The notes below the pieces were generated by a model. It saw only the letters and a list, made by a program, of their open reading frames with translations, searched no databases and was not told the origin of the DNA. From Ensifer sp. IC4062 (lineage in GTDB: Bacteria > Pseudomonadota > Alphaproteobacteria > Rhizobiales > Rhizobiaceae): DNA of 64,000 nucleotides. The position numbers and the translations under genes were made by a program. Positions within the stretch are counted from its first letter, which is position 1. Each line of letters opens with the position of its first letter. The stretch is taken from positions 1 to 64,000 of the forward strand of contig NZ_JADYVD010000014.1 in NCBI RefSeq assembly GCF_020193575.1. The letters are read 5' to 3'. Below, piece after piece: positions 41,388 to 52,546 of this stretch.

Positions 41388-41672
41388 TCAATCGGTGATG
41401 TGAAACCCCACCGGCGCATGCACGGACGAGGCATCTTCGCTCGCGACGTTTGACACCCGTGCTGCGGGCGGGCCTTTCCAGAAGCGGCTCAGCATCATTG
41501 AAATCGCCGCCTCGGGTCCGGCAATGAGGGCCGTGACGGAGCCGTCGCGCTCGTTGCGGACCCAGCCCGCAAGGCCGAGCCGTACCGCTTCGTCGCGGGT
41601 CCAGATGCGGAAGGCGACGCCCTGCACCCTTCCAGTGATCCGGACCAGAGCTGCTTTGCGATCCTCCGCCAT
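41388..41672 (-). CDS. acyP: Acylphosphatase
   Basis: A 94-aa protein, the usual size. VRITGRVQGVAFRIWTRDEA carries the active-site Arg (VAFR), and LAGWVRNERDGSVTALIAG the active-site Asn (RN-x2-DGSV). It hydrolyses carboxyl-phosphate bonds such as acetyl phosphate and 1,3-bisphosphoglycerate. It is a single gene with GGAGG upstream, converging on pcaF. Confidence 0.93.
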   Translation of the reverse strand: MAEDRKAALVRITGRVQGVAFRIWTRDEAVRLGLAGWVRNERDGSVTALIAGPEAAISMMLSRFWKGPPAARVSNVASEDASSVHAPVGFHITD

Positions 41673-41876
41673 GGCCGCCTCCTTCCTGTTCGGTCCTCTG
41701 AATCTGGCGCAGAAAGCGGCGAATGCAAGCGCATCGCCCGGGGTGGGCGTTGACGCGCATCAGGCCAGGTGTGCAGGCTAGTGTGTGCTGGCCCATGTGA
41801 GCGGAGCTATGTGAGCGGGCCATGCATGCGCCACCACGCCGGCATCGTTGCCGTTCAGAAAATCTGCCCTCTCGGA

Positions 41877-41906
41877 CTTGAAGGCACTCCATCGCAACAC
41901 CATTGT
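41877..41906 (+). promoter_or_regulatory. RpoH-type (sigma-32) promoter for the anti-SD sRNA
   Basis: CTTGAA at 41877-41882, a 17-nt spacer, and CCATTGT at 41900-41906 match the rhizobial heat-shock sigma consensus CTTGAA-n16/17-CCANNT at all but one position. It ends about six bases before the first hairpin region of the sRNA, the correct distance for initiation. Confidence 0.7.
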
Positions 41907-41911
41907 ATGAG

Positions 41912-42030
41912 TTATCGATGGGGCCTCCTCCTCCCGGCCCTATCGTGTGGGATCGGCAACGCTCCTCCTCCCAGTTGCCGATCAGATTCGAAAGCCCGGT
42001 GCCCCTCCTCCCGCGCCGGGCTTTCTCTTT
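41912..42030 (+). ncRNA. Three-hairpin anti-Shine-Dalgarno sRNA (alpha-r14 / cuckoo type)
   Basis: About 119 nt with three successive hairpins. Hairpin 1: arms 41916-41925 and 41936-41945 (10 bp, one G-U), loop TCCTCCTCCC. Hairpin 2: arms 41951-41960 and 41974-41983 (perfect 10 bp), loop GCTCCTCCTCCCA. Hairpin 3: arms 41991-42002 and 42013-42024 (12 bp), loop CCCTCCTCCC, followed by TCTCTTT, so it also serves as the terminator. Each loop displays CCUCCUCC(C), complementary to ribosome-binding sites. This is the hallmark of the rhizobial alpha-r14 (NfeR1) and Rhodobacter CcsR/cuckoo sRNAs, which bind many mRNAs under stress. The RpoH-like promoter agrees. Ends are estimates. Confidence 0.88.
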
Positions 42031-42125
42031 GGAGGCTCCATGCAGCAATTCAAAAAGAAGCGCGCGGCGCGGTAGGGTCGAACCGCGCAGACGATCGCGA
42101 TAAAATGCCGTTTGCTGCACAGTTG

Positions 42126-42151
42126 GGAACGTTTGAGCGGGTCCGGCATCC
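42126..42151 (+). promoter_or_regulatory. ECF-type promoter of the sigma-factor gene (autoregulatory copy)
   Basis: GGAAC (42126-42130), 16 nt, CATCC (42147-42151). The extended form GGGAACGTTT-n11-GCATCCAA is repeated exactly, spacing included, at 42862-42890 before the next operon. The GGAAC -35 is the usual ECF motif. The predicted start site lies a few bases before the AAGGAG of the sigma gene. Confidence 0.75.
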
Positions 42152-42175
42152 AATGTGCAACAAGGAGCCTCGACC

Positions 42176-42859
42176 ATGCCCATCGCTGAGAAATTCCCCT
42201 CCCGAACACGCGAGTCATCACCGCAAGACATCGAAGCCTTCCGTGTGATCATGCAGGCGCACAATCGCAAGCTCTATCGGATTGCCCGAAGCATCGTACA
42301 GAACAACAGCGATGCCGAGGACGTCCTCCAGGAGGCCTATGTCCGCGCTTTCACGCATTTTTCCGAATTCCGCGGCGACTCGGCCATCACCACATGGCTC
42401 TCGCGCATCGTGATCAACGAGGCCTTGGGCCGGCTGCGCCAGAGGCGACGCAGGCGACGGCTCGCCGAAGATATGTTGCAGACCCATCAGGCGGAGATCA
42501 TCGCCTTCCCGCGCAATGCAGACACGGACGATCCGGAAAAGACAATGGCACAGCGACAGATTCTCGACCTTGTCGAAAAGGCGACCGATCAGCTTCCGGT
42601 CATCTACCGCACCGTCTTCGTCATGCGCGTGATCGAGGGGCTCAGCAACGAAGAGGCTGCCGAGTTGCTGGCGCTTCGCCCCGAGACCGTGCGAACACGG
42701 CTCTTTCGCGCGCGACACCTCATCAAAGAGCAACTGGAGAAGCAGATCGGCCCGCTTCTGCTCGACGCCTTTCCCTTCGCGGGCAAGCGTTGCGAGCGTC
42801 TGACCGAAGCCGTGCTCGCGCGCATCTCCCAGCAGGAACCGGAGGATGGCGGCAAGTAA
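42176..42859 (+). CDS. ECF-family RNA polymerase sigma factor
   Basis: A 227-aa protein from the ATG at 42176 (AAGGAG eight bases upstream); the frame to 42155 is not needed. Region 2 spans residues ~20-90 (NNSDAEDVLQEAYVRAFTHFSEFRGDSAITTWLSRI, abridged), and region 4 spans ~135-190 (LPVIYRTVFVMRVIEGLSNEEAAELLALRPETVRTRLFRAR, abridged). A 35-residue C-terminal tail (LLDAFPFAGKRCERLTEAVLARI) exceeds typical ECFs. No anti-sigma gene is adjacent. Identical GGAAC-n16-CATCC promoters precede this gene and the DUF4142-cupredoxin operon, so it probably drives both. Confidence 0.92.
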   Translation: MPIAEKFPSRTRESSPQDIEAFRVIMQAHNRKLYRIARSIVQNNSDAEDVLQEAYVRAFTHFSEFRGDSAITTWLSRIVINEALGRLRQRRRRRRLAEDMLQTHQAEIIAFPRNADTDDPEKTMAQRQILDLVEKATDQLPVIYRTVFVMRVIEGLSNEEAAELLALRPETVRTRLFRARHLIKEQLEKQIGPLLLDAFPFAGKRCERLTEAVLARISQQEPEDGGK

Positions 42860-42862
42860 TCG

Positions 42863-42888
42863 GGAACGTTTCGACCTGCGAAGCATCC
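42863..42888 (+). promoter_or_regulatory. ECF-type promoter of the DUF4142-cupredoxin operon (second copy)
   Basis: GGAAC (42863-42867), 16 nt, CATCC (42884-42888), the same sequence and spacing as the promoter of the sigma gene itself. It lies in the short spacer directly after the sigma stop codon and about 50 nt before the DUF4142 start. Confidence 0.75.
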
Positions 42889-42940
42889 AAAGCACGTCAA
42901 TTGCACATTCCGCTTTGATCTTCGAGGAAAGGAACATCCG

Positions 42941-43465
42941 ATGACCATACGCTTAACCACCGCAGCCGCTGCAATCGCCCTGTTGCTCGGGGGCAATTGG
43001 GCGCTCGCCGGCGACAAGCCGACGGATCCACAGATCGCGCATATCGCCTACACCGCAGGCGTGATCGACGTCGAAGCGGCAAAACAGGCCATCGCTACGT
43101 CGAAAAACAAGGCCGTCCTCGAATTCGCCGAGAGCATGGTGCGCGACCACGAGTCGGTGAACGAGCAGGCACTCGATCTCGTCAAGAAGCTCAATGTTAC
43201 CCCCGAGGACAACGACACCAGCAAAGCCCTGTCGCAGGCGGCCGAAGCCAAACGCTCGGAACTGGCGAAGCTGACGGGGGCTGATTTCGACAGGGCCTAT
43301 GTCGAGAACGAGGTCGCCTACCACAAGCAAGTCAACGGCGCGCTGGAGACCCTGCTGATCCCGTCTGCGCAAAATGCCGAGCTCAAATCTCTGCTCGAGA
43401 CCGGGCTGAAGCTGTTCCAGGGCCATCAGCAGCATGCCGAACATGTCGCGACGGAGCTGAAATGA
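42941..43465 (+). CDS. Periplasmic DUF4142 protein
   Basis: A 174-aa protein with signal peptide residues 1-22 (LLLGGNWALAG). The mature part is helical, with the DUF4142 pattern FAESMVRDHESVNEQALDLVKKLNV and YVENEVAYHKQVNGALETLLIPSA; the paired His residues (RDH, YHK, GHQQHAEH) suggest a ferritin-like four-helix bundle able to bind metal. Members are stress-induced periplasmic proteins. GAGGAAAGG precedes the ATG, and the gene overlaps the following cupredoxin by four bases. Confidence 0.9.
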   Translation: MTIRLTTAAAAIALLLGGNWALAGDKPTDPQIAHIAYTAGVIDVEAAKQAIATSKNKAVLEFAESMVRDHESVNEQALDLVKKLNVTPEDNDTSKALSQAAEAKRSELAKLTGADFDRAYVENEVAYHKQVNGALETLLIPSAQNAELKSLLETGLKLFQGHQQHAEHVATELK

Positions 43466-43779
43466 ACGCGGTGAGACCGGCTTTTCTCGCCCTGTTGTTG
43501 GGAACGGCGGCCATCGCCGTTCCCGCGCAGGCAGAAACCATCGAGGTGACGATCGACCGCCTGGCCTACGCGCCCGCGGAGATCGAGGCCAAGGTGGGTG
43601 ATGAAGTCGAGTGGATCAACAAGGATGCGCTGGTTCACACCGCCACGGTGACGGGAGGTGCGGAAGTGCTCCTCCCTGCGAAGAAATCAGGTCGCCTCCT
43701 GCTGCAGGAGCCGGGCAGCTTCGACTATATCTGCCGCTACCATCCCAACATGAGGGGGCACATCACCGTTCGCCCCTGA
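43462..43779 (+). CDS. Periplasmic cupredoxin (amicyanin/plastocyanin-like)
   Basis: A 105-aa protein with a signal peptide (residues 1-24, ending PAQA). The type 1 copper ligands are His59 (ALVHTA), Cys91, His94 and Met97 (CRYHPNM), the amicyanin/pseudoazurin spacing. It would carry one electron or buffer copper in the periplasm. The ATG overlaps the DUF4142 stop. Its redox partner is not visible; coexpression with a helical His-rich protein points to copper or oxidative stress handling. Confidence 0.92.
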   Translation: MNAVRPAFLALLLGTAAIAVPAQAETIEVTIDRLAYAPAEIEAKVGDEVEWINKDALVHTATVTGGAEVLLPAKKSGRLLLQEPGSFDYICRYHPNMRGHITVRP

Positions 43780-46014: not shown

Positions 46015-46605
46015 ATGACGCTTATACGAGGTCGCATATCGCTCGTGGTCCTGCTCGCAATGGCGACCACAGCATGCCAGACGGAAGACAAGAGTCCCCA
46101 ACCGCGCTTTGTTTCGAGCATAGATGCTACCGCGGCACGAACTAGCGGAAAGTCTCAACAGAGAGACTACGGCTACTTTATCGAATTCCGCTCCCGTTAT
46201 GCGCTCAGCTATGGTCACTCCTACGTGATTTTCGGGCGCACGAACAAGTCGGGAGCAATGATCAACCCAGAGGTCGCAGGACTTGCACCGGCCACGAACG
46301 ATACCACACCGTACGTGATGGGTCATTTCCTGCCGGTTCCGGCCGAGACCGGGGCAAGCGACGGCGACCTGGAAGAAGAATACAGGTCGGCAAGCTGGCG
46401 CGTTCTGCTGACGGAAGCCGAGTACCAGGAAGTCGTCGCGGACATTCGCAAGCTCAAAGCGAGGTCCCGCTTCTGGCACGCGTCACTCTACAACTGCAAC
46501 GCCTTCGTGGCGGAAATCGCGCGTTCGATGGGGTATAAGACGCCCGGCATCTGGCTCAGGCCGCAAGAATTCATTACAAAGCTTCGGGAGATGAACGGCG
46601 GATGA
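46015..46605 (+). CDS. Lipoprotein with a possible permuted papain-like (NlpC/P60-type) Cys-His pair
   Basis: A 196-aa protein. A signal with lipobox ATTAC gives a lipidated Cys at residue 21. His68 in YGHSYVIFG and Cys161 in YNCNAFVAEIARSMG are set as in circularly permuted NlpC/P60 or LRAT-like enzymes, where His precedes Cys. Such proteins cleave peptidoglycan peptides or act on lipids. Length and order fit, but no exact family was recognised. It starts with ATG 46015; no strong ribosome site. It precedes the ICMT gene by 141 nt. Confidence 0.7.
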   Translation: MTLIRGRISLVVLLAMATTACQTEDKSPQPRFVSSIDATAARTSGKSQQRDYGYFIEFRSRYALSYGHSYVIFGRTNKSGAMINPEVAGLAPATNDTTPYVMGHFLPVPAETGASDGDLEEEYRSASWRVLLTEAEYQEVVADIRKLKARSRFWHASLYNCNAFVAEIARSMGYKTPGIWLRPQEFITKLREMNGG

Positions 46606-49717: not shown

Positions 49718-52546
49718 TCACTCCATATCGTCGCTGTCGGGCGTACCAGAATGGTCGCGTTGGCCGTAGATAATCTCGCGCTTGCCGACATGGTTGGCGG
49801 GGCCGACAAGACCCTCCTTCTCCATGCGCTCGACGAGCGAAGCGGCGCGATTGTAGCCGATGCCGAGGCGGCGCTGGATGTAGGACGTCGAGCACTTCTT
49901 GTCGCGCAGCACGACCTTGACCGCCTGGTCGTAAAGCTCGTTGCCGTCCTCGGAGGCGATCGCGCTCTTGTCGAACACGGCGCCCTGATCCTCCTCGGCC
50001 TCCTCCTCCTCTTCGTCCGCGGTCACCGTCTCGAGATATTCCGGGCGCCCCTGCGTCTTCAGGTGCGCCACCACATGCTCGACCTCGAGATCGGAGACGA
50101 AAGGTCCGTGGACGCGGGCGATGCGGCCGCCGCCGGCCATGTGCAGCATGTCGCCCTGGCCGAGGAGCTGTTCGGCGCCCTGCTCACCGAGGATCGTGCG
50201 GCTGTCGATCTTCGAGGTGACCTGGAAGGAGATGCGCGTCGGGAAGTTCGCCTTGATCGTGCCGGTGATGACATCGACAGACGGGCGCTGCGTCGCCATG
50301 ATCAGGTGGATGCCGGCCGCGCGCGCCATCTGCGCCAGCCTTTGGATCGCGCCTTCGATCTCCTTGCCGGCGACCATCATCAAATCGGCCATCTCGTCGA
50401 CGATGACGACGATATAGGGCATCGGCGCCAGATCCATTTCCTGCTGCTCGAAAAGCGGCTCGCCGGTACCCTTTTCGAAACCGGTCTGGACCGTCGCCAG
50501 GATCGGTTCGCCCTTCTCGCGCGCTACAGCCGCCCGCTGGTTGTAGCCGTCGATGTTGCGCACGCCGAGGCGCGACATCTTGCGATAACGGTCCTCCATC
50601 TCGCGCACCGCCCATTTGAGCGCCATCACGGCTTTCTTCGGGTCGGTGACGACCGGTGTCAGCAGATGCGGGATGCCGTCGTAGACGGAGAGTTCCAGCA
50701 TCTTCGGATCCACCATGATCAGCCGGCACTCCTCCGGCTTCATCCGGTAGAGCAGCGACAGGATCATCGTGTTGATCGCCACCGACTTGCCGGAACCGGT
50801 AGTGCCGGCGACGAGCAGGTGCGGCATCTTGGCAAGTTCGGCAATCACCGGTTCGCCGCCAATGGTCTTGCCGAGGCAGAGCGCCAGCTTGTAGCCGGTC
50901 TTGCGGAAATCGGCGGACTCGATCAGTTCGCGGAAATAGACCGTTTCGCGGGTGGCGTTCGGCAGCTCGATGCCGATGACGTTGCGGCCGGGCACGACGG
51001 CAACACGGGCCGAAAGCGCCGACATCGAGCGGGCGATATCGTCGGCGAGGTTGATCACGCGGGACGATTTGACGCCCGGCGCCGGCTCGAATTCGTAGAG
51101 TGTGACGACGGGACCCGGCCGCACGTGGATGATCTCGCCCTTGACGCCGAAATCTTCGAGTACGCTTTCGAGGAGCCCGGCATTCTGCTCGAGCTGCTCC
51201 TGCGTCATGAAGAATCCGCGGCCTTCCGGCGGCTCCTGCAGGAGCTCCTCGGACGGAAACTCGTATGCGTCGGTTGCCTGGACCCGCTCGATTGCGCCAA
51301 GCGGCGGCAGCGACGGGGAGGAGCGCTGCACGACGTGCGGCATGGTGACCATTGCCTTCGCCACCGGCGCCTCGGGCACCGCAGTCGACACGATCGGCTC
51401 GGCGGATGCTGGGGCGGATGCTTGCGCGACCACTGCGGCTGCCGCCGAAGTGGGTTCCTCGGCGAGCGTCCCGTCGATCACGTTAGCCGTTGGAGCGGAA
51501 ACAGGCAGTTCGGCCGCCGGCGCCGGACGCCGGCATTCGACGACCCGGAACAGCGAGGTGATTGCGGCGGTCGGCAGCGCGAGGATTTCCGCGGGCCGAA
51601 CGGCTACGGGCTGCGGTTCTACTGCAATCTCAGGCGCGATTGCCACGGCAGGGGCAACGGTTATGGGCGCGGCGACCGAGGGAGCGGCAGGGGCCACGAC
51701 CTCTGGCTGGATGAACTCGAAGAAGGCGTGGTCCGAAAGATAGGCAAGGCGCGTGTCGGGCTGAATGCCGGTCTCGGCAACCGCACCGTCAGTGATCGCT
51801 GGAGCCTCTGAAAGCACGTCCCCAACCTTTACGTCGACTGCTTCCTGTGTGGATACAGGTTGCGTTGCCGGGATTGTCGGTCCCTGCGCTACAACCGGCA
51901 CCGAAACCGACGCTGATTCGGCCGCGCCAGGGCCGTTGGCTTGAGAACTCCAGGAGGGAAGCTGCTGCACCAGTACACGCAGCAGTTCGGATGGACTGTA
52001 GTTGGGCGTCTCTGACTCAACGGCCGGCACATCGTTCGCCGGGACCGCCTCGACCGACGCCTCGCCGACCTCCTCGACTGCCGCGACGTCCGTCTCGGCG
52101 ACCTCCGCGGCCACCTCCGCTTCCGTTTCGTTCTCCTCGATCGCCGGGGCGCGGCGCTTCATGAATTCGCGTTCGGGCGTGCGGGTAAAGCGGACATTGG
52201 GCGACAGGAAGAAATGGCTTTCCCAGGTCGTATCGCCGTCATGACCGGTGATTTCGGCAAGCGTCGGCAGCGGATCTCGTGTGGAAGCCGTGACCTGGGC
52301 CGGAGCATAGGCCGAACCCTGCCCATAGAGCCGCGCCGCGCGCCCGGCATAGCCTGGGTGGTGGGCTTCCTGACTAACCGCGCACCGCGGCGCTTCCGGC
52401 GCCTCGAACAGGTGATCGTGTTCGCTGGAGCCTGCCGTGTGGCCATGAGCGCTGCTCAGGTCACCCGGCTGCGGAGCCTCGAAATCGTCCGTCTGGTTTG
52501 CATCATACAAAGCTGCCGTCGAGAAATTTGTCCGGGGAATACGCAT
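49718..52546 (-). CDS. FtsK/SpoIIIE-type DNA translocase without an obvious membrane anchor
   Basis: A 942-aa protein. Residues ~1-470 are low-complexity, Ala/Pro/Val/Glu-rich, with no clear membrane helix. The motor follows: alpha domain, Walker A GTTGSGKS (~residue 580), Walker [13 protein letters not shown] (~713). The C-terminal ~65 residues are the gamma winged helix ([26 protein letters not shown]), which reads KOPS-like DNA in FtsK. FtsK normally has four N-terminal helices; lacking these, this is probably a second, soluble translocase. It could act in segregation of the replicon. Confidence 0.88.

Follow-up and report, generated by a model that had tools for sequence, protein, structure and literature searches.

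Paired promoter-like elements conserved at the RpoE8-type (group ECF29) sigma factor locus of Ensifer sp. IC4062 and its relatives

Introduction

The locus described here raises the question of whether an ECF sigma factor reads two copies of one promoter-like element, the first in front of its own gene and the second in front of the short operon that follows, and by what means its activity would be held in check. In the window (the whole stretch of DNA analyzed, 64,000 nucleotides of Ensifer sp. IC4062), GGGAACGTTT-N11-GCATCCAA occurs at two places, 42125 and 42862, 5' of an ECF sigma factor gene and 5' of a DUF4142-cupredoxin gene pair. The original prediction regarded this arrangement as direct evidence of a positive autoregulatory ECF circuit with a defined periplasmic metal or stress output. 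RpoE8 of S. meliloti has been assigned to group ECF29, and of the two transcript starts mapped 5' of its gene, one lies at a GGGAAC/GCATCCAA element (Lang et al., 2018; PMC6180224). The same authors reported a second motif match 5' of SMb20593, listed both copies in their Table 1, and left the significance of the second open. The promoter map that they cite as the source of the motif (PMC3817407) does not use the term ECF29 in its main text. In this study, we compare the locus with its counterparts in the genus, the order, and beyond.

Results

The locus and its two elements

The features of the locus are as follows.

41388..41672, minus strand: counterpart of acyP, encoding an acylphosphatase and divergent to the sigma factor gene (PF00708, E 8.5e-24)
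41909..42028, plus strand: small RNA gene ar14 (CCUCCUCCC-loop), in the interval from acyP to P1 (Rfam RF02344)
42125..42153, plus strand: P1, promoter-like element GGGAAC-N15-GCATCC(AA) 5' of the sigma factor gene (pattern scan, conservation)
42176 (ATG)..42859, plus strand: ECF sigma factor of 227 aa, RpoE8/ECF29 orthologue (NF008888, Pfam, identity)
42743..42859, plus strand: C-terminal tail of the sigma factor past region 4, with Cys206 (TGC 42791-42793) (alignment)
42862..42890, plus strand: P2, second copy of the element, 5' of DUF4142-cupredoxin (pattern scan, conservation)
42941..43465, plus strand: DUF4142 protein, SMb20593 counterpart (PF13628, E 4.5e-38)
43462..43779, plus strand: cupredoxin, AmcY counterpart (PF13473 and PF00127)

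The identity of core and spacing claimed for the two sites was confirmed, since GGAACGTTT-N11-GCATCCAA is present in two exact copies at 42126-42153 and 42863-42890 (GGGAAC from 42125 and 42862), and it never turned up in 100 dinucleotide-shuffled versions of the window. P1 is separated from the sigma ATG by 24 nt, counted from the end of GCATCC, and P2 begins 2 nt past the sigma stop codon. When the whole draft genome (7.12 Mb in 175 contigs) was scanned with GGAACGTTT-N10..12-CATCC, there were two matches, both at the sigma locus, and none for the reversed-pattern control. A chance origin of the pair was rejected on the strength of the shuffles together with the genome and order-wide counts.

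The looser pattern GGAAC-N16-CATCC, which had been put forward to define the regulon, did not hold up in that role: with one mismatch allowed it matches 12 times in the window against 5.4 expected and is therefore too weak. Besides P1 and P2, it matches the window exactly once more, on the minus strand at 50671-50696; this match lies inside a same-strand frame of 942 aa, FtsK-like by eye, and is most likely a chance occurrence. A relaxed motif found six sites in the draft genome, two of them at the sigma locus and three of the other four within long frames, sense or antisense; the last (L161) ends 12 nt 5' of the ATG of a transporter-like ORF and, as it overlaps the ribosome-site region, was also taken as chance. 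Another motif pattern gave four sites, two at the sigma locus and two within long frames. A wider regulon in the draft genome, made up of such off-locus sites in long frames or of L161, was accordingly rejected.

The sigma factor scores 304.6 bits against NCBIfam NF008888 (cut-off 204), contains the Pfam domains Sigma70_r2 and r4_2, and has 73% identity over residues 1-227 with its counterpart in S. meliloti 4H41 (L090); the nearest relatives that bear a name come from Ensifer and Sinorhizobium and are at best 94% identical. Pfam recognized no known anti-sigma family among eight proteins encoded around the sigma locus, as the original prediction had stated for the adjacent genes; the five neighbors scanned besides the sigma factor and its two downstream products are an acylphosphatase, an SDR protein, an L,D-transpeptidase, an ICMT-like protein, and one protein (46015-46605) with no Pfam match. 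On sigma identity, NF008888 score, the GGGAAC/GCATCCAA element, neighborhood, and absence of an anti-sigma gene, the locus is that of Sinorhizobium RpoE8, a member of group ECF29. The rpoE8 (SMb20592)-SMb20593-amcY locus of S. meliloti has the same gene order, the same divergent acyP, both elements at the same two places and no known anti-sigma gene (PMC6180224), but it belongs to another species and has other spacer letters. Because both motif copies are in Lang et al. (2018), the pairing of P1 and P2 is not new, and its finding in the window is a rediscovery in a related species.

A simple positive loop fails to explain three observations that Lang et al. (2018; PMC6180224) report for S. meliloti: 126-fold overexpression of RpoE8 activated no target, no transcript start was found 5' of SMb20593, and nodule amcY was raised 2.6-fold in an all-ECF deletion strain and 3.2-fold in an rpoE8-SMb20593 deletion strain. 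To speak of "direct" positive autoregulation was thus an overstatement.

Upstream region

The stretch between acyP and P1 contains ar14, which scores 104 bits against RF02344 (cut-off 58.8), lies 96 nt upstream of P1 on the same strand, and folds much better than its shuffles (z -5.55). It is present upstream of the sigma gene in 29 of 30 loci of the genus (missing in L016) and, at the Rfam cut-off, in none of 48 loci outside the genus, within flanks of about 1.5 kb (except L094). This small RNA may explain the second start mapped upstream of S. meliloti rpoE8. For S. meliloti, a site bound by PhaR has been described in the rpoE8-acyP interval (PMC12542648). The core of the site given there has no match within three mismatches near the sigma locus (41672-42176) and three elsewhere in the window; PhaR control as in S. 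meliloti was consequently not adopted for this locus.

Products of the downstream operon

Judged by eye, both downstream proteins are probably exported. The AlphaFold2 model of the DUF4142 protein (mean pLDDT 86) predicts a helical bundle of the ferritin-like type. The nearest structures are DUF305, YciF-type, Dps and copper-binding CopM proteins (Z 13-15.5), and the best VIA comparison has a Z of 15.5, with an rmsd of 2.6-3.6 over 144-154 residues (DUF305 and YcfI structures), all scores to be read with the knowledge that helical bundles score high by default. Foldseek with this model returned no match at E 0.001 or better, a PDB sequence search with the protein returned none, and among the papers listed for TTHB210 and DUF4142 none dealt with this sigma system. 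In the cupredoxin, H59, C91, H94 and M97, which we take to be the type 1 copper ligands, line up with all four type 1 copper-site residues of the solved amicyanin 1sfd. The protein reaches 46.2 bits against the amicyanin equivalog TIGR02657, below the cut-off of 110.2, and we therefore call it amicyanin-like and do not file it as an amicyanin. A role of the pair in periplasmic redox or metal handling is plausible, and to this extent the predicted periplasmic metal or stress output stands; it is not "defined", its basis being a predicted fold and copper ligands.

It might be asked whether the DUF4142 protein or the cupredoxin is itself an anti-sigma-like negative regulator that closes a negative feedback loop. 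The rise of amcY upon joint deletion of rpoE8 and SMb20593 would fit, and repression is among the options that the authors considered (PMC6180224). However, both proteins look exported by eye while the sigma factor is cytoplasmic, relatives of the locus have Ferritin_2 and cytochrome c or TTHB210-like and cupredoxin genes instead, SMb20593 is described as lacking the features of known anti-sigma factors, and the deletion may, as the authors' alternative has it, have moved amcY nearer to an upstream promoter (PMC6180224). We regard such a negative loop as highly improbable.

Conservation within the genus

The sigma factor is above the cut-off in 30 of 33 genomes of the genus. At these 30 loci P1 has lost none of its 12 fixed letters, and P2 is kept throughout, in 25 exactly and in five with one mismatch (L012, L013, L016, L017 and L030), against a background of variable spacers (17 distinct P1 and 21 distinct P2 29-mers). 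Counted from the first nucleotide of the sigma stop, P2 begins 4-9 nt downstream, the exceptions being L032 (at 176 nt) and L003, whose sigma frame reads on through P2. The strict motif GGGAACNTTN-N11..13-GCATCC gave 51 sites in the 33 genomes, 50 of them at the sigma locus, and two for the reversed control; the three sigma-negative genomes, one of which is just 70% complete, had none. The looser motif GGGAACNTNN-N11..13-CATCCAA gave 56 sites and none for the reversed control, with five off-locus sites, one in the sigma-negative genome G015, all inside long reading frames. A close cupredoxin (56-100% identity) accompanies the sigma locus in the 30 sigma-positive genomes and is absent from the three sigma-negative ones, two of which gave no match and one a 34% match.

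The spacers of the two elements differ in one respect. A TTCG-N5-CGAA dyad is found in the spacer of P2 at 22 of 30 genus loci and in that of P1 at none; since it is confined to P2 in the Sinorhizobium loci, it would be a possible repressor site there, and hence a possible operator that separates the control of P2 from that of P1.

Loci outside the genus

Beyond the genus, we collected 48 loci with similarity of the sigma factor as the sole criterion; the class search gave 12 of them, the order search 28 and the phylum search 7, and one is a named record. They are not all of the positives, as 23 of 53 sigma-positive genomes of the order yielded no locus (one later gave L197), and 62 of 80 loci (28-38% identity) were excluded from the motif counts. 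The test was for GGAAC-N16/17-CATC within fixed stretches, with module families identified by phmmer from one query each. Among all 48 loci, P1 was found in 31 and P2 in 25; Markov shuffles of the same stretches gave means of 0.105 (P1) and 0.12 (P2) loci of 48, with maxima of 1 and 2, and reversed patterns gave none.

In the 24 loci arranged sigma-DUF4142-cupredoxin, P1 is present in 21 and P2 in 23, and where the arrangement is flipped to DUF4142-cupredoxin-sigma the motif heads the operon in 5/5 loci and precedes sigma in 0/5. P1 is also present at the single locus with a divergent DUF4142-cupredoxin pair and in four of the five loci where no module family was recognized in the flank (L185, L191, L193, L194 and L195). 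Two further modules place, as here, a small protein and an electron-transfer protein beside an NF008888-family sigma factor, but with different Pfam families in place of DUF4142 and cupredoxin. Sigma-Ferritin_2-cytochrome c (eight loci) has P1 in two and P2 in the same two (L070 and L071, where the elements are thus again paired), with neither at the tested positions in the other six. Sigma-TTHB210-cupredoxin (two loci) and sigma-TTHB210 (one) have P1 in 3/3 and P2 in 0/3, and TTHB210-cupredoxin-sigma has an operon-head element in one of two. For Ferritin_2, cytochrome c, TTHB210-like and cupredoxin, one example of each family was confirmed by Pfam. The 92-aa protein that follows TTHB210 in L068 was considered as a high-potential iron-sulfur protein; it has no Pfam match and we do not claim it as such.

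These counts bear on the possibility that P1 is a real RpoE8 promoter and P2 is inactive, under repression in the conditions that were used, or at most a weak site or a decoy, with DUF4142-cupredoxin transcribed from elsewhere. The missing start 5' of SMb20593, the lack of induction by overexpression and the rise of amcY in the deletion strains (PMC6180224) all speak for it, as does the dyad of the P2 spacer, which could bind a repressor. Against it stand the retention of P2 at every genus locus and at 23 of the 24 same-order outside loci, the position of the motif before DUF4142 at all flipped loci, and a DUF4142 gene unlinked to sigma that has a motif of its own (L233). We consider this reading of P2 unlikely.

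Co-occurrence of the motif with the sigma factor

We took 397 genomes of the order, searched for the sigma factor and for the motif at the same settings and with matching handles, as one set, in which 53 were sigma-positive (E 1e-60 or better). The looser motif occurred at 60 sites in 41 genomes, compared with nine reversed-control matches, and was found in 36/53 sigma-positive versus 5/344 sigma-negative genomes (Fisher p 1.0e-32, nominal, as order genomes share ancestry). All five of these sigma-negative genomes have the motif spaced one base shorter, so that at N16 spacing the split is 36/53 versus 0/344 (Fisher p 1.7e-38, likewise nominal and with the split made post hoc). The pattern searched was not found in 17 of the 53 sigma-positive genomes, all 17 of which score below 300 bits, and the sigma-negative genus genome G015 shows that N16 sites can arise by chance within genes. 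To our knowledge, EcfG-type sigma factors are nearly universal in the order.

The split of 36/53 versus 0/344 speaks against a reading in which P1 and P2 are served by another GGAAC-type ECF sigma factor, for instance the general stress factor RpoE2/EcfG, with RpoE8 as a bystander. Several RpoE2-associated promoters of S. meliloti do carry GGAAC (PMC6180224, Table 1), but further on they have CGTT and not CATCC, and the motif tracks the RpoE8-type factor across genomes. We judge the bystander reading to be quite improbable.

Candidate targets beyond the locus

In 40 genomes of another genus, the looser motif was present in 28, with two reversed-control matches. The gene 3' of the motif at 30 inspected loci was sigma in 11, DUF4142 in 13, folE in four, globin-like in one and nothing in one. 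A further six sites were selected for the resemblance of their letters, and two of these lie in genomes of that genus from the order search; they added two folE and three globin-like loci and one (L264) that is a globin-type site with no ORF by our rule. In total, the element precedes folE at six loci (L203, L204, L212, L222, L262 and L267), with starts 42-52 nt downstream, and a globin-like gene at four (L225, L263, L265 and L266). Pfam identified one folE product as GTP cyclohydrolase I (3.7e-52) and placed one globin-like protein marginally above the cut-off (22.9 bits versus 21); by eye, the globin-like protein may be exported.

In distant members, the same genes recur near the sigma factor, with Pfam applied to the L193 folE, the L185 globin-like gene and the L191 pair. 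FolE adjoins sigma in L193 and L195, L185 has a globin-like gene beside sigma and, by eye, folE, and folE lies two genes onward in L074 and 3.4 kb onward in L094 (by eye). No gene was recognized in the flank of L194. In the distant genome of L191, NnrS and SirB genes adjoin a sigma gene of the same family, and these neighbors, together with the globin-like gene, give a hint of nitrosative stress.

The C-terminal tail of the sigma factor

Region 4 of the sigma factor spans residues 132-180, and the tail beyond it carries F-P-F-A-G-K-R-C, ending in Cys206, the only cysteine of the 227-aa protein. Cys206 is present in 78/78 aligned relatives (30 from the genus and 48 others) and is the sole cysteine in 57/78, a count biased toward its conservation, as nearly all 78 were retrieved with a full-length profile that spans the tail. 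The predicted sigma structure, the alignment for which included 15 of the 62 loci at 28-38% identity, has a mean pLDDT of 69, with residues 194-227 mostly below 50, and is too uncertain for any structural claim on the tail. A review of ECF factors lists ECF29 with no anti-sigma factor, a regulatory extension and the mechanism "Others" (PMC8999054). The listed extension agrees with the tail seen in the window; in its account of the group the review does not name a sensor residue, and the invariant cysteine is an observation of the present analysis, which could already be in print elsewhere. Its constancy makes Cys206 a candidate sensor.

Discussion

Taken together, the data suggest that P1 and P2 have been kept by evolution and belong to the RpoE8-type sigma factor. 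The explanation that we favor overall, with a probability of about 0.72, is that the ECF29 sigma factor reads P1 at its own gene and P2 at the operon and is restrained after translation. Motif, gene content, conservation and co-occurrence are matters of direct observation here; what we infer is recognition by the sigma factor, positive feedback, a sensor function of the tail, export of the products, and their periplasmic redox or metal role. Of the original claim, the conserved promoter-like elements tied to the sigma factor stand and the direct evidence of autoregulation does not.

The proposed mechanism would run as follows. The sigma factor would recognize GGGAAC-N15/16-GCATCCAA; through P1 its gene would come under its own control, and through P2 it would drive a short operon whose two products, a ferritin-like DUF4142 protein and a blue-copper protein, would both be exported. 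In Sinorhizobium, P1 and P2 would make up the regulon as the strict motif defines it, and the other genus would add folE and an exported globin-like gene. Its activity would most likely be restrained post-translationally, perhaps via the tail that carries the invariant Cys206. With no anti-sigma candidate known for group ECF29 according to Lang et al. (2018; PMC6180224) and no adjacent anti-sigma gene here, restraint after translation is likely, and expression alone would then leave the targets off. Such control would reconcile the favored reading with overexpression that activates no target, and the promoter-proximity idea of Lang et al. would reconcile it with the raised amcY.

A more specific version may be offered tentatively, as one that we think possible but less likely than not. 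ECF29 would be a one-component redox or metal switch in which sensing of the signal by Cys206 releases the sigma factor to switch on its own gene and a periplasmic module made up of a ferritin-like protein and an electron carrier, joined in some genera by folE and an exported globin. A switch of this kind would explain why overexpression was silent in unstressed S. meliloti.

Part of the comparative results may already be published. Lang et al. (2018; PMC6180224) raised two questions, the role of the second motif and the control of RpoE8, and the comparison bears on the first: P2 is kept across genera and stands before the output genes even when the gene order is flipped, and the exact spacing occurs only together with the sigma factor in the order-wide sample. 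As to the control of RpoE8, a single tail cysteine provides a concrete target, and folE and the exported globin-like gene are candidate targets outside the sigma locus.
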